Of a stretch of 64,000 bases of DNA, positions 20,945 to 39,741 are shown piece after piece. The stretch spans positions 372,001 to 436,000 of the forward strand of contig NW_026943205.1 in NCBI RefSeq assembly GCF_024139115.2, read 5' to 3'. Within the stretch, counting starts at the first letter, position 1; every line of letters begins with the position of its first letter. The notes below the pieces were generated by a model. That model did no database searches and was not told the DNA's origin. It saw only the letters and a list, made by a program, of their open reading frames with translations. This DNA is from Armigeres subalbatus (lineage: Eukaryota; Arthropoda; Insecta; Diptera; Culicidae). The translations under genes were made by a program, and so were the position numbers.

Positions 20945-21150
20945 GGATATGCGACCAAACACTTTCGACGTAATCTACGATCAAGGGGGAGGAGGCTCGG
21001 ATACAGGGTGTAAAATGAAAATGTCAAAATTGACGGTTCCCAATTATGTATTATTATGACGGTTCGAAATTATGTAAGATTTTGACCGGTAATGACGCCG
21101 TTATCTTACGATGGATTTTCGAGATTTATATATCAATCGATTTCGAAGCT
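20945..21150 (+). repeat. Interspersed repeat shared with 895-1090
   Basis: Same ordered blocks as the first copy, including ACAGGGTGTAAAA and CGATGGATTTTCGA. It ends about 40 bp before the target duplication of the composite retroposon. Confidence 0.45.
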
Positions 21151-21189
21151 CTGCATCAATTTTCCAGTATTAATGAAACTTTTGATGAT

Positions 21190-21211
21190 CATCATTATAC
21201 TGTTGAAACCG
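21190..21211. repeat. Target duplication of the composite retroposon, left copy
   Basis: 22 bp (starts CATCATTATACTG, ends GAAACCG), identical to 22362-22383. Confidence 0.9.
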
Positions 21212-21212
21212 A

Positions 21213-21735
21213 GTTCAGTGCGTGATCTCTCATGTTTCGGACAGCAGAACGATCGCGCGGTCGGCCGAATTATTGTGTTCTGCATTGCGCGGCCGGTAAT
21301 AAAAATAATCAGTTCAGTGCGTGATCTCTCATGTTTCGGACAGCAGAACGATCGCGCGGTCGGCCGAATTATTGTGTTCTGCATTGCGCGGCCGGTAATA
21401 AAAATAATCAGTTCAGTGCGTGATCTCTCATGTTTCGGACGGCAGAACGATCGCGTGGTCGGACGAAATATTGTGTTCTGCATTGCGCGGCCGGTAATAA
21501 AAATAATCAGTTCAGTGCGTGATCTCTCATGTTTCGGACGGCAGAACGATCGCGTGGTCGGCCGAATTATTGTGTTCTGCATTGCGCGGCCGGTAATAAA
21601 AATAATCAGTTCAGTGCGTGATCTCTCTTGTTTCGGACAGCAGAACGATCGCGTGGTCGGACGAAATATTGTGTTCTGCATTTCGTGGCCGGTAATAAAA
21701 ATAATCAGTTCAGTGTGTGATCTCTCATGTTTCGA
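21213..21735 (+). repeat. 99-bp tandem array, five full copies and a partial
   Basis: Units start at 21213, 21312, 21411, 21510, 21609 and 21708, exactly 99 bp apart, with only a few differences. Each holds a palindrome-like core running from GCAGAACGATCGCG to GTGTTCTGC, followed by GGCCGGTAATAAAAATAATC. Because 99 is divisible by three, frames stay open on both strands (257 and 206 residues), but this is periodicity rather than coding. Related cores occur at 39190-39440. Confidence 0.95.
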
Positions 21736-21739
21736 AGCG

Positions 21740-21810
21740 GGCTTGGTAGTCATATGGCTACTGCTTCTGCCTCATACGCAGGAGGTCGTGAATTCAATCC
21801 CAGGTCCGTT
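21740..21810 (+). promoter_or_regulatory. tRNA-like pol III promoter block of the retroposon
   Basis: GGGCTTGGTAGTCATATGGC resembles a tRNA 5' end and A box. CTGCCTCATACGCAGG could form an anticodon arm with a CAT loop like tRNA-Met. GTCGTGAATTCAATCC resembles a B box. The acceptor stem is not intact, so this is a SINE head and not a tRNA gene. Copy 2 lacks a clear counterpart. Confidence 0.55.
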
Positions 21811-22361
21811 CCATTCTCCTACTTTGTATCTTTCTCTTTATTTCTCATGTTCTAGCAATCGCTAGAACTGGAAATGGACTTCCATACCGTTTCCATTACT
21901 ATTCCTATACCTTTAATTTGAGTATTCTAACAGTAATCTGCTAGAATTGGAAATGAACTTATAGAGCTCGTTTCCTACATCCAATTAGAAATTCCATCAG
22001 TTACCTTCTCCTATCTATCACATTGGCAGCTCGTGAACCAAGACGGACCTCTGCCTCTCCAACCTAACCCAGAAATTCCAACAAATTCCGCATGAACTCG
22101 TGGCAAGTGCAGAGGTATATTCGGCTTGCAGTGGGCGAGTGATTGCATCATCATTTCCTCCCCCTTCCCTACATTGACTTGCATTCTGACATGGCAGGCG
22201 CCAGTATGACCTAACAAATGAGATCACCAGTTCTTGTACATTGAAGATGTGTGCTAGTCCCAAGCAAACATCTGTTGGTTCCCTGTGCAAGAACAGCTGA
22301 TCTGGTCATAATGGAGTAGCAACTACGAGCAGTCAATCAAGCTCAAGCTCAAGCTCAAGCT

Positions 22362-22383
22362 CATCATTATACTGTTGAAACCG
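22362..22383. repeat. Target duplication of the composite retroposon, right copy
   Basis: 22 bp identical to 21190-21211, directly after the hexamer tail. Confidence 0.9.
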
Positions 22384-22989
22384 TTCTTTTCAAATCTAGT
22401 AAAAATTTCAGAACCAATCATTTCTGCTCGTGCCGATAGGATTGGTTGGTTTACCTATTTCTAAACTTTTTAACAGTTATCGATAATCAGTATTTGTTGA
22501 ACAATACAAAGAAGCGTTAACTCTTCTGTGATCGAATGGACCTAAAAAAATTAAAATCCATCGAGAAACGGCTGAAATATTGGCGTTTAAAGTGTATCAT
22601 ATTTTCGCGACGGTCTTTTATTTTCGCAATCACAAAGTGTACCCCGACATGAAAACACAGACGTAGTCATACGCCAAAAAAAAACACACGAATCCCAAAA
22701 TCCACGTAGAAACGTCTTTATCAACTTTTCCGACCTTTTTGAAGAACGACTTTTTCATGAAATTCACGTAGAATTCGAAAAATGCGTTCCACGTGAATTT
22801 CAAAATCCGCGTGAGAAATATTGCGTACTCCTGCGTAAAAACGCGCTACGTGAACACTGCGTTAAAAGCAACCCCAGTGTCAACATTTTCTTATATAAAA
22901 CTAACGAATAAAATTCAGAAAACTGTTAATATTTAGTTAGAGAGTGTACCCGGTTGTGGGCCTAGTTGCGTATGTCGCTCATAACTTTT

Positions 22990-30779: not shown

Positions 30780-32945
30780 CACTGCCGGTAGCCATCTGAA
30801 CTTACGGGCGGGATACAGTAATTGCCCGTATCCTGAGAAATTCCCGGAGATGTAAGTCAGGATAGTCAAAATATTGTCCCAGATATATTACTCATTGTTT
30901 TAACCCCACATAAAAAATCATCGGACTCGCCTGCCCATCGTATGATTTTGGCGATATGGCACCGCCAGTGACAAACGACGCACACTGGGGATTTTCAGAA
31001 GCAAAAGGCTCGAAATTCAATTACTTCAGCTGACGCTGCAAAATTTCCAGAAAGTACATGTTTCCTGAAGGAAAAAAGTGCGATGAATCGATTGCGCGGG
31101 GTTTCGTGCTGGGCAGACTACTTTAAAGTGCCCATTTTGCCCCAATTCCCATAAAAATCACAATATTTCAATATTACAATTCCCCTGAAATCACAAAATT
31201 TTTGCTATGCCTCGAGCTGACGCTGATATTTCTTCAATAATTATAGGTTACATGAAGATAAAAGTGCGATGAATCGATTGCGCGTGGTTTCGTGCTGGGC
31301 AGACTACTTTAAAGTGCCCATTTTGCCCCAATTCCCCTAAAATCACCATATTTCTGTAATGCCTCGAGCTTACGCTGATATATCTTCAATTAAAATATGT
31401 TTCCAGAAGGGAAAAAGTGCGATGAATCGTTTGCGTGGGGTTTCGTGACGAGCAGACCCTTTTAAAATGACCATTTTGCCCCAATTCCCTTGAAATCACA
31501 AATGTTTTGCTATGCCTCGAGCTGACGCTGATATTTCTTCAATAATTATAAGTTTCCTAAAAGTAAAAAGTGCGTCGATTCCGTGGGGTTTCGTGCGGGT
31601 CAGACTATTTTAAAGTTACCATTTTGACTCAATTCCCCTTAAATTACAATATTTCTGTAATGCCTCGAGCTGACGCAAATATTTCTTCAATAATTTGAAG
31701 TTTGCTGAAAGGAAAAAGTACGATTAATCGATTGCGCGGTGTTTCATGCTGGGCAGACCACTTCAAGTGACCATTTTGAACCAATTCCCCAGAAATCACA
31801 ATATTTCTGTAAAGCTTTAAGCTGACGCTGATATTTCTTCAATTAAAATATGTTTCCTGAAGGGATAAAGTGCGATGAATCAATTTCGCGGGGTTTCGTG
31901 CTGGTCAGACCACTTTAAAGTGCCCATTTTGACTCAATTCCCCTAAAATCACAATATATCTGGCATCAATTGTATATATTGTGAATTTGGGGGAATTGGG
32001 GTGAAATGGTCACTTTACAGTGATCTGCCCAACATGAAACCCCGCGCAATCGATTAATCGTACTTTTTCCTTTCAGCAAAATTAAAATTGTTGAAGAAAT
32101 ATCAGCGGCAGCTCGAGGCATAGCAGAAATATTGTGATTTTAGGGGAATTTGGGGCAAAATTGTCATTTCAAAGTGGTCTGTCCGGCACGAAACCCCGCG
32201 AAATTGATTCATCGCTTTTTTACCCTTCAGGAAACATATATTTATCGAAGAAATATCAGCGTCAGCTCGAGGAATAGCAGAAAATGTGTGGTTTCAGGGG
32301 AATTGGGGTAAAATTGTCACTTTAAAGTGGTCTACCCAGCATGAAACCCCGCGCAATCGATTTGTCGCACTTTTTCTCCTCAGGAAACTTATAGTTATTG
32401 AAGAAATATCAGCGTCAGCTCGAGGCATAGCAAAAAACTTGTGATTTCCGGGAAATTGGGGCAAAATGGTCACTTTAAAAGGGTCTGCCCATCACGAAAC
32501 CCTACGCAAACGATTCATCGCACTTTTTCCCTTCAGGAAACATATATTTATTGAAGAAATATCAGCGTCAGTCTGAGGCATAGTAGAAATATTGTGATTT
32601 TTAGGGGAATTGGGGCAAAATGGGCACTTTAAAGTAGTCTGCCCAGCACGAAACCCCGCGCAATCGATTTATCGCACTTTTTTCCTTCAGGAAACATGTA
32701 CTTTCTGGAAATTTTGCAGCGTCAGCTGGAGTAATTGAATTTCGAGCCTTTTGCTTTTGAAAATCCCCAGTGTGCGACGAGTTGATCGCTATAAAAGAAC
32801 TTAAACGAAATAACGCTCCAGGTTAGGATGGCACTCCAAATATGCGATTCTTGCTATTACGTTTGAATCTCCCGTCCAATGTGGAAATATAATGCTCGAG
32901 ATTGCTACTGAAACTCTGGAAGTAGTTGCACTAAAAGTTTAAGGA
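30780..32945 (+). mobile_element. R1-clade LINE fragment split by the foldback element
   Basis: On the plus strand, blocks before the foldback element (about 30800-30980, ending GDMAPPVTND in one frame) and just after it (32775-32945, ELIAIKELKRNNAPG) fit the RT entry of R1-clade LINEs. Removing the insertion and one target copy brings the two blocks together in a sensible order. The fragment is short and decayed. Confidence 0.55.
30981..32774. mobile_element. Foldback element: 1.8-kb palindrome built of 153-bp repeats
   Basis: 1,794 bp bounded by CACACTGGGGATTTTC and its complement, with CGACG on both sides (30976-30980, 32775-32779). The outer 180 bp of each arm are almost identical. Each arm is a row of about 150-bp units carrying GTGCGATGAATCGATTGCGC and GCCCATTTTGCCCCAATTCC: left unit marks at 31079, 31264, 31417, 31570, 31718 and 31870, right ones near 32050, 32205, 32362, 32515 and 32668. 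The arms meet near 31975. No protein is encoded. The design is that of Drosophila FB elements, which have long inverted repeats made of short direct repeats. Confidence 0.85.
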
Positions 32946-32989: not shown

Positions 32990-34620
32990 AACCATCACAG
33001 CTTGTACCTTCTTGGATACCTGGTTGGCTACAGCGTCGATACACCTATGCCTGGCGTATTGTAGAGCTCCATAATCGTCGGTCTTGGGTGATGTTCCTCC
33101 AGTTTCCCCGAACGTTCAGGGTCCCAGGTCCGATGCTACCGCGTGCAGCCAGCGTGTTCGTGGCCTTCCACGAAGTCGCCGGTCATTATCTGGTTCTCTG
33201 TTGAATATTGTTTTCGCTATTCTTTCTTCTGACATTCCCATTAAAGTGTGCCGTATTTTATATGCTTCACAATATTTTCCTTCTAAACTTGATACAGCTC
33301 ATGATTCATGCGTCTGCGCCACACACCAAGGTCATTAGGCCGAATGGCCATTAGGATGAATGAGAAGTGGGGAGTGAGAAGTGAGTAGTGCGAAGTGAGA
33401 AAGAATAAAGAAGGAAGAAGGAAGAATAAAAAAGACAGATGGAAGGAGGATGAGCAGGATAAAAAAGAAGGAAGAAGGAAGAAGGGAGAAGAATGAACGA
33501 ATGAAAGAAGGAGGAAGAAGGAAGAAGGAGGAAGAAAGAAAAAGAAGAAGTAAGTACAAAAAAGGAATAAATAAGAAAAAAGAAACAGAAAGGAGGAAAG
33601 GAAAAAATTAAAAGAAAGAAGACGAAGAAAAAAAAGTAAAAAGGAATAAGGAAGAAGAATAAGGAATAAGGAAGAAGAAAGATGGAAGAAGGAAGAAGGA
33701 AAGAGGAAGGTGGAAAAAGGAAGAAGGAAGAAGGAAAGATAGAAGAAGAAAAAAGGAAGAAGGAAGTCAGAAGAAGGAGGAAAGAAGAAGGAAGAAGGAA
33801 AAAAGAAGAAGAAAGAAGAAAAAAAGAAGAAGAAAGAAAGAAGGAAGAAGGAAGAAGAAAGGCGAAAAAAGAAGATGAAAGAAGAAAGAAGGGAGAAGGA
33901 AGCTGGGAGTAAGAAGATAGGATAATGAAGACGGAAGAAGGAAGAAGAAAAAACGGAGAAGGACGAAGGAAGATGGAAGCAGGAAGAAGGAAGAAGGAAA
34001 AAGAAATAAGACAGAAGGAGGGAAGAGGAAACGGAAAAAGAGGAAGGCCGAAGTAAAAGGGAAAAGGAGAAAGAAAGAAAGAAGGACGAACAAAAGGAAG
34101 AAGGAGAAAGAAAAAAAGGAAACGAGAAAGAAGGAAGTTGGAAGAAGGCAAAAGGAAGAAAATAAAATAGAAAAAGGAAGAAAGAAGTTAGGAGAAAGAA
34201 GATGGTAGAATGAAAAATGAAGAAGGAAGAATGAAGAAGGAAAAAGGAAGAAGAAAGTAGAAGAAGAAGGGGTAAAAAAGCAGTAAAAATAAAAAAGAAA
34301 GACAGGAAGTACAAGAAGAAAGAAGGAAGAAGAAGATGAGAGAAGCAAGAAGAGAGAAGGAAGCAATGTTGAAGGGAGGGAAGAACTTCTGATTTCTCAT
34401 TTTTTGCCTATTTTTTCTTCTTCGGCCTAACGGTTATTCGGCCAAATGACCGTTCGGCCTAGTGACCATTCGGCCTAACGATCTTTGGCCACTTCCATCA
34501 TTTTCTAGTTTCCCTACAATTATTGTACGCAGCACTTTTCGCTCGAAAATCCAGAAAGCTCTCCGCTTCTTTTAACGTCAATGCTTCATGTCTATAAAGG
34601 GCCACTGATAGAATCAGAGT
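32990..34620 (-). mobile_element. RTE-like LINE C-terminal end split by a purine-tract insertion
   Basis: In reverse, about 34600-34500 reads FWIFERKVLRTI and then GKLENDGSG. After the insertion at 33326-34498, reading resumes VWRRRMNHELYQV at about 33318. About 33180-33050 reads RPRGRPRTRWLHAVA, the family's basic end. Together this is the C-terminal cap of the LINE family at 11470-13975, with stops. Confidence 0.75.
33326..34498. repeat. 1-kb GAAGAAGGA purine tract with GGCCGAATGGCC ends
   Basis: From about 33350 to 34385 the plus strand is almost pure A and G, in degenerate AAG/GAAGGA units. Outside it lie CCAAGGTCATTAGGCCGAAT on the left and the complement of CCAAAGATCGTTAGGCCGAA on the right, so the tract sits inside an element with inverted ends. 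The open frames of 199-343 residues on the minus strand (phenylalanine, leucine and serine only) are artefacts. A long mirror-like purine tract of this kind can form triplex DNA and stall polymerases. Confidence 0.85.
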
Positions 34621-38788: not shown

Positions 38789-38813
38789 CTAATTCGAAAG
38801 AATGAACCGACAT
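38789..38813. repeat. Target duplication of composite retroposon copy 2, left
   Basis: 25 bp (starts CTAATTCGAAAG, ends GAACCGACAT), identical to 39849-39873. Confidence 0.9.
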
Positions 38814-39189
38814 GAGCATGAGCATGAGCATGATTGACCGCCCACGGTTGCTACTCCGTTACTGCCAGGTCAGCTGTAATTACACAGAGAACCAACAGAT
38901 GAAGTTTGGGACTAACAACATCTTCAATGTGTAAGAACTGGTGACCCAAAAATATGCAATACCAGCGCCGGCCGTGTCCGAATGCAGGTCAATTAAGGAA
39001 TGGGTAGGATTATGTTGACATGATACTCGCTTTGATAGAAGCCGACGAGTCATCTGCACTTCCACGAGAAATCACTGGGATGTTGGATATATGGGGTAGG
39101 TATTGCGGCAGGGTTCGTTTTGGTAAACGGTATGCCGTGTATAGCGTGTAATTTGATTAATTCAAAACATATCGAACGAACACTAATTA

Positions 39190-39440
39190 TTTTAATTACC
39201 GACCGCACTAAGCAGAACAAAATTGTCGATGACCAGCCGATCTCTCTGCTAACCGCACAAAGCAGAACAATATTTTCGATGACCGGCCGATCGTTCTGCT
39301 TACTGACGCGAACTGTATCTTCACTTTCTAATTCATTTACTCACCCGCACAAAGTAGAACAACATTTCGATGATCGGGCGATCGTTCTGCTAACCGCACA
39401 AAGCAGAACAAATTATGTCATGACCGGCCGATCGTTCTGC
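39190..39440 (-). repeat. Four GCAGAAC...GTTCTGC cores, related to the 99-bp monomers
   Basis: Cores of about 40 bp start with AGCAGAACAA and end with GGCCGATCGTTCTGC or a variant, at about 39192, 39252, 39352 and 39400. They are separated by ACCGCACAAA spacers and by one longer spacer. On the minus strand they match the monomer core at 21213-21735, and the flanking CGGTAATTAAAATAATTAG also matches. They are more diverged and irregularly spaced than in copy 1. Confidence 0.8.
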
Positions 39441-39552
39441 TTACTAAATAAATCACGACTGTACGTGACCTCTGAATGCTGAACATTTGTCTTTCAAGCA
39501 ACAAACAAACATGATCTACTTTTTTCACTCAATTCCGACAGAAAATTTGATA

Positions 39553-39741
39553 GGGACACGGCAGGTATTTCCGTCTGTTCGTCATAGTCTCGAAAACCAA
39601 TAAAAGAGACGCTTTTTTTTGTAAAACTCATACGTACCAAATCGTAAGAAACGTTCTGCTATAGTGGAGTTCTAGCAAATTTACGTTGCTTTCGTTGGTT
39701 TCAACCCCTACGACGATGGACGGAAATACCTGCCGTGTCCC
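39553..39741. mobile_element. TA-flanked MITE with near-perfect 23-bp ends
   Basis: 189 bp between TA pairs (39551-39552, 39742-39743). The ends, starting GGGACACGGCAGGTATTTCC, are exact complements over 23 bp. A lone end of the same family is at 13987-14009. Identical ends imply recent movement. Confidence 0.85.

Follow-up and report, generated by a model that had tools for sequence, protein, structure and literature searches.

Mouse LINE-1 elements carry a variable number of tandem promoter monomers at their 5′ ends, and their copies keep these promoters. Among noncoding retroposons, the tRNA-derived SINEs Feilai A, Feilai B and Gecko have been described in Ae. aegypti (PMC3755910). In the SVA and LAVA composites, the array forms the central domain, which the available part of that account does not describe as a row of start sites (PMC4432496), and in SINE-derived satellites, tandem repeats arise from portions of SINEs (PMC10702118).

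Here, we describe a retroposon from a 64,000-nt window of the Armigeres subalbatus genome (contig NW_026943205.1, positions 372,001 to 436,000 of the forward strand). In common with mouse LINE-1, it has 5′ tandem monomers which vary in number and lie inside the target-site duplications, and transcription may start inside the array; unlike mouse LINE-1, it is noncoding and tRNA-derived, has no ORFs, and shows an initiator/downstream-element architecture. The tRNA-derived head, noncoding body, short tandem tail and target-site duplications are those of tRNA-derived SINEs, as far as the partial account of these goes, and the short class of copies corresponds to a conventional tRNA-derived SINE. 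However, in contrast to the Feilai/Gecko-type SINEs as described in that part, up to about 115 promoter-like monomers stand 5′ of the tRNA block, with starts within them, and one subfamily has no B box. With SVA and LAVA, the element shares, again within what the source extract covers, its noncoding nature, a variable tandem array and a presumed mobilisation in trans (PMC4432496), but its array is 5′-terminal, insertions start within it, and the SVA-type plan, in which an Alu-like 5′ part precedes the array and a 3′ part follows it, was not found. The link between a SINE and a tandem array recalls SINE-derived satellites as the excerpted source presents them (PMC10702118), whereas the array here is not SINE sequence and constitutes a separate 5′ module that is inserted along with the SINE. 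Among the matches listed from the open-licence literature, no description of this plan was found.

The noncoding element occupies positions 21212–22360 of the window on the forward strand, as do all its features given below, and is flanked by perfect target-site duplications of 22–23 nt (21189–21211 and 22361–22383, 23/23 identical), for which 22 nt is the safe length and the first T of the 23 may belong to the tail. It begins with five full 99-bp monomers (21212–21706), which we propose to be tandem pol II-type promoters, followed by 28 bp of a sixth (monomer positions 1–28, at 21707–21734) that join the array to a tRNA-Met(cat)-like block (about 21737–21813), degenerate in this copy. The body of about 550 bp consists of a family-specific middle (21816–22036), which occurs in sampled copies both with and without monomers, and a 3′ module (22037–22336) with 73% identity to a second family in the window, and the element ends in a TCAAGC-repeat tail (22337–22360). 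Tandem Repeats Finder reported the array at 21212–21734 (period 99, 5.3 copies, 96% match) and a 6-bp array at 22337–22363, in agreement with the first-pass annotation, which had read five and a quarter 99-bp units, a further stretch of 550 bp and a (CAAGCT)n tail inside one perfect direct repeat. Its reading of a tRNA-Met-like block was likewise right, in that the block of relatives is often called tRNA-Met(cat) by ARAGORN.

No open reading frame for an endonuclease or reverse transcriptase was found, the longest stop-free stretches over the element (259 and 212 aa) being those that cross the 99-bp array. The former is a single frame open from 21086 to 21865 on the forward strand and is probably meaningless, since 99 bp, i.e., 3 × 33 or 33 codons, keeps a frame open through the array; a coding function of the array was rejected, 98- and 100-bp steps being present in other copies. 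A known RNA family was also considered and rejected, as the single Rfam match in 21100–22500 was SNORD82 at 21128–21201, under threshold and 5′ of the element. Elsewhere in the window, 31177–32697 holds two blocks of tandem units of about 153 bp, apparently mutual reverse complements, and 33361–34363 holds about 1 kb of purine-rich AAGAAG-type repeats.

A genome search with the whole element gave 2375 candidates, of which 40 were scored, comprising the window copy and 39 further near-full copies with 95–98% identity to it, all examined with their flanks. As the query contained the array, these 39 are by selection array copies that resemble the window copy. Target duplications lie outside the array in 34 of the 39 (35 of 40 counting the window copy) and measure 17–32 nt, five with one or two mismatches; no clear duplication was seen in L014, L020, L023, L029 and L044. 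Of the six array copies with long stretches that were sampled and not ranked by likeness, five also have duplications outside the array (L049, 27 nt; L051, 26 nt; L055, 23 nt; L066, 21 nt; and L063, 26 nt), whereas for the sixth, L048, the flank comprised only 11 nt. Because target duplications flank the array from outside, a host-derived array was rejected, and the view of the first-pass annotation that the array had been part of the inserted copy holds.

It had further proposed counting the monomers of each copy, and the 5′ number indeed varies, from 4 (L047) to 56 (L013) full units 5′ of the tRNA block among the ranked copies and up to about 115 beyond them. None of the 40 ranked copies has fewer than four full units; among the sampled ones, L055 has one and L049 two. 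The array of L063 contains 80 exact monomer words across 11,189 bp, with 77 of the 79 steps multiples of 99 and two off by one. The 5′ flank, in L159, and the 3′ flank, in L063, share a perfect 26-nt stretch, the first bases of which may be tail, and the insertion between them (G000:C1, about 9906451–9918480) would hold about 115 monomers in about 12 kb by coordinates, its array middle known from pattern matches only. We regard it as a mobile element of satellite size. More generally, a 35-nt pattern for the monomer-to-tRNA junction matched 682 genome places at up to 3 mismatches (reversed control, 0), and units differ by about 3.1 per 99 positions within arrays vs. about 4.6 between arrays. 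In L102 (G000:C1:101040318–101040448), the tRNA block stops after about 50 bases and seemingly runs back into a monomer; this may be a SINE piece drawn into an array.

The 5′ ends of the array-bearing insertions concentrate on two monomer positions. According to a table compiled by hand from the duplication and start-position results, 30 of the 35 ranked copies that have duplications start at one of two positions, monomer base 1 in 24 copies and base 6 in 6 (binomial against 2/99, p about 4e-46). In 29 of the 30, the first templated base is directly preceded by a G where the template has C (AATC/AGTTC/AGTG, the slashes preceding base 1 and base 6), and in the remaining one by an A. For 21 of these 29 copies, the G is located outside the duplication, and in the other 8, the window copy among these, it could be host sequence. 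An automatic count over all 40 ranked copies, which mis-phased L026 and L028, gave 30 G and 2 A for the 32 copies with a start at one of these two bases, against a G frequency of 18% in the flanks (p about 2e-20). The other five of the 35 start at base 16, at base 21 (L033), at base 32 (L018) and, in two cases, at an unclear position; L033 and L018 likewise show G for C. Among ranked copies without duplications, L014, L020 and L044 begin with G followed by base 1, L023 begins without the G, and L029 begins inside a monomer. Among the sampled array copies, the start is base 1 in L049, L055 and L063 and base 6 in L051, in every case preceded by a G that is inside the duplication in L049 and L055 and outside it in L051 and L063, while L066 starts elsewhere and L048 has an A before base 6. 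In short copies, a G precedes the start in only 2 of the 10 that were scored by hand, the other 4 of 14 having been left unscored for having no extra base or no AGC start. In L1-type elements, copying of the cap is known to leave an additional G at the 5′ end. Thus, the extra G looks like the copy of a capped, i.e., pol II, RNA, and together with the insertion 5′ ends it points to transcription starts inside the monomers. The comparison with the promoter monomers of mouse L1, made already in the first-pass annotation, is a fitting one, given that insertions start at one position of the monomer and carry an additional G there.

The monomer also contains candidate pol II core promoter motifs, namely TCAKTY and RGWYV, which we take to be the initiator and the downstream promoter element, respectively. 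The former occurs as TC/AGTT across the monomer junction (21309–21314, with the A at 21311 as putative +1) and recurs at each junction; it is the sole TCAKTY match in the monomer consensus, and its A is monomer base 1, so that the initiator coincides with the insertion start base. The latter occurs as GGACA at +28 to +32 (21239–21243 in the first monomer) and repeats every 99 bp in the window, with the last A changed to G in monomers 3 and 4. In base-shuffled monomers, the joint chance of finding both motifs at their fixed places is 3.5e-5. Columns 28–32 and the initiator columns are 96–100% conserved in 367 monomers, as is most of the unit. Since the initiator spans the junction, the whole motif is supplied only by the array or by a fitting flank, and the array would thereby keep promoters through rounds of retroposition, by analogy with mouse L1 monomers. 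The best reading is that each monomer may act as a pol II promoter. A palindrome-like core, to which the first-pass annotation had drawn attention, is present in the monomer, but it does not underlie the fold that was predicted for the RNA of a single unit.

The array is found in one part of the family. A 34-nt word from the tRNA block matched 4592 genome places at up to 3 mismatches (reversed control, 0), and a sample of 40 was taken as the first exact tRNA-block places on C1 in map order, irrespective of upstream sequence. Monomers precede the block in 11 of these and are missing in 29. Long flanks were at hand for 20 of the sampled places, 14 of them without monomers, and all 14 of these short copies have duplications of their own (18–31 nt) and begin at the tRNA block, at (A/T)GCGGGC preceded by 0 to about 8 extra bases; for the remaining 15 monomer-less places, about 200 nt of upstream sequence was examined. 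Judged by its sequences, this one tRNA-Met SINE family has two 5′ ends. Since monomer-less copies account for most of the sample, the array is no constant component of the family but a putative promoter module, carried by some members of an otherwise conventional tRNA-Met SINE family. Target duplications with a simple-repeat tail, which characterise SINEs, were found in 14/14 short copies as well as in 35/40 ranked and 5/6 sampled array copies. The plan with a 5′ array that the first-pass annotation ascribed to the family therefore describes its array copies and not the 29 of 40 sampled ones without monomers, and copies that begin at the tRNA block without monomers, which it had named as evidence against such a plan, do occur next to those with arrays.

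In the window copy, the B box of the T stem, a pol III element, is broken. The former box (21791–21800) reads AATTCAATCC here vs. GGTTCAATCC in most sampled relatives, with GG changed to AA at 21791–21792. ARAGORN, run with the bacterial code, found no tRNA in the window, and it called a tRNA in 12 of the 14 sampled short copies (11 Met, 1 Ile), in 3 of the 6 sampled array copies and in 6 of the 39 ranked copies other than the window copy, the GG-carrying relatives often as tRNA-Met(cat). A tRNA-derived head with A and B boxes is thus a property of the family and not of the window copy, in which the head is degenerate and lies behind monomers. A 51-nt pattern carrying the AA matched 166 genome places at up to one mismatch, some of them with a single A, and 93 exactly, while its GG form matched 2520 (up to one mismatch). 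Monomer sequence stands just upstream in all 23 exact AA copies on C1, for most of which only 35–47 nt of it were seen, and in 7 further copies on C2; the 23 comprise 13 places examined for this purpose and 10 already known, four of the latter only as junction matches. Because the 40 sampled places were picked by the exact 5′ half of the tRNA block, only the B-box half is unbiased in them, and there the B box is intact in 32, 7 with and 25 without monomers. Monomers upstream are therefore found in 23/23 AA copies vs. 7/32 copies with an intact B box (Fisher, 1.1e-9), where the 23 are not independent events because the AA copies share ancestry as one lineage. Across lineages, the B box is intact in 25 of 29 copies without monomers vs. 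19 of 31 with them (p 0.041), the latter being the 11 sampled copies plus 20 junction places, taken from those of the 682 that were listed on C1 at one mismatch; loss of the B box is thus only weakly commoner in monomer-bearing copies. The subfamily of the window copy, whose B box is broken and whose examined copies all carry monomer sequence, seems to depend on a pol II start. The composite is real and unusual, and one of its subfamilies seems to have given up the pol III head.

Phylogenetic analysis of the body covered 60 rows (40 ranked and 20 sampled copies) with the tRNA-block columns included, and gave a tree with a weak backbone that neither roots nor dates the capture of the array. One clade (99/95) mixes L045 and L063, which have arrays, with L067, which has none, and a 33-row group (92/83) contains array copies only, all from the ranked set. 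A single clade for short copies was not rejected (p-AU 0.065). It seems from the mixed clade that one lineage may give both long and short copies.

The 3′ module is common to the element and another noncoding family. The member of this second family in the window (38811–39441, reverse strand) has monomer-core units, the 3′ module and a CATGCT tail, and no tRNA-Met block, and the element extends further 5′ than 39441. Of 3259 candidates from a search with this family, 40 were scored, 39 of which are other places at 97–98%. In a search for its duplications, a convincing pair was obtained for L130 (28 nt, one mismatch), and the other matches are at chance level, since the examined stretches stop short of the 5′ end; a tRNA-like start of L130, noted by eye, was not supported by ARAGORN. 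Inside the second element lies a 189-bp MITE (39553–39741) with exact 23-bp terminal inverted repeats (GGGACACGG...) and a TA duplication, the empty site of which is seen in relatives such as L128 (GAGTA/TCAAAT). As for the monomers themselves, seven clusters occur among the first 100 of 1741 exact matches; six are followed by the tRNA block, which for one of them is known from coordinates alone, and in the seventh, L158, the monomers run into another body with, by eye, a related 3′ module. As they occur with more than one body, the monomers behave as a module. No coding element with these monomers was found among the copies examined.

We consider it quite probable that the family is a tRNA-Met SINE with a 5′ array of pol II promoters, that its copies with an intact head are also transcribed by pol III, and that the window subfamily depends on pol II. 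On sequence grounds, the case for starts within the monomers and for two product classes is strong. A tRNA-Met-derived SINE would have acquired a 5′ array of 99-bp promoter monomers, and the polymerase, which we infer to be pol II, would begin transcription at base 1 of any monomer or, less frequently, at base 6. The resulting capped RNA would extend through all further monomers, the tRNA block and the body to the end of the TCAAGC tail, and presumed LINE-type machinery would copy it into a new site, including a cap-derived base, i.e., the extra G. In this way, the promoters would travel within the transcript, as in mouse L1. Where the tRNA block is intact, pol III may also start there and give rise to the short monomer-less copies, whereas the window subfamily without the B box would rely on the pol II start.

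Several other explanations account for part of these observations. A passive satellite, captured once and transcribed from flanking pol II promoters, with monomers that have no promoter role, would fit the copy of about 115 units, the likeness within arrays that exceeds that between arrays, and the L102 copy, whose tRNA block seems to re-enter a monomer. However, read-through from the flanks would not give one start base with an extra G across very different lengths, and the initiator and the +28 element coincide with that start base, which makes this account very improbable. The fixed start with its extra G is equally unexplained if insertions carried one or few monomers and the arrays grew later in the DNA by slippage or unequal exchange. 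Such growth is favoured by the homogeneity within arrays and by the 115-unit array, but there are no fewer than four full units in any of the 40 ranked copies, even though L055 and L049 in the sample have one and two. We rate later growth as a possible but not a likely explanation of the arrays in place of the promoter reading; it is also compatible with that reading as a second step, and for the longest arrays this second step is probably true.

The remaining alternatives concern the polymerase and the source of the monomers. That pol III makes the long RNA too, via an upstream effect of the tRNA block and with no pol II involved, is hardly credible, although array copies keep a tRNA-like block and the B box is intact in 12/20 junction copies. 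Pol III initiates close to the A box, for which the 14 short copies also speak, and the AA copies with their broken B box still spread; in addition, pol III RNA has no cap, whereas the extra G marks the long class and not the scored short copies. It is also conceivable that the long class derives from an autonomous LINE with a monomer 5′ UTR, from which the SINE gained its monomers by recombination or template switching, and both the element at 38811–39441 and L158 combine monomer-type units with a related 3′ module in the absence of a tRNA-Met block. We consider this origin doubtful, since there is no coding copy among those examined and six of the seven monomer clusters, in the 100 places listed, precede the tRNA block. 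However, it concerns the source of the monomers and is compatible with the SINE carrying a pol II promoter array that we favour.

For that promoter-array SINE, we lean, on balance, towards a history in which a pol III SINE gained self-propagating pol II starts, became a dual-product lineage, and then, in one branch, lost the pol III head while still spreading, with the promoter cassette present in sister families and arrays growing to satellite size. Promoter exchange in retroposons is mostly inferred from end products, whereas here the stages seem to be present in one genome, namely short pol III-type copies, a dual-product lineage and a broken-B-box subfamily found only with the new promoter. 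The family would provide natural material in which the contributions of the two polymerases to retroposition can be told apart. It also suggests convergence of a noncoding insect element on the solution of mouse L1, i.e., spare tandem promoters, and may illustrate one route from a mobile element to an array of satellite size.
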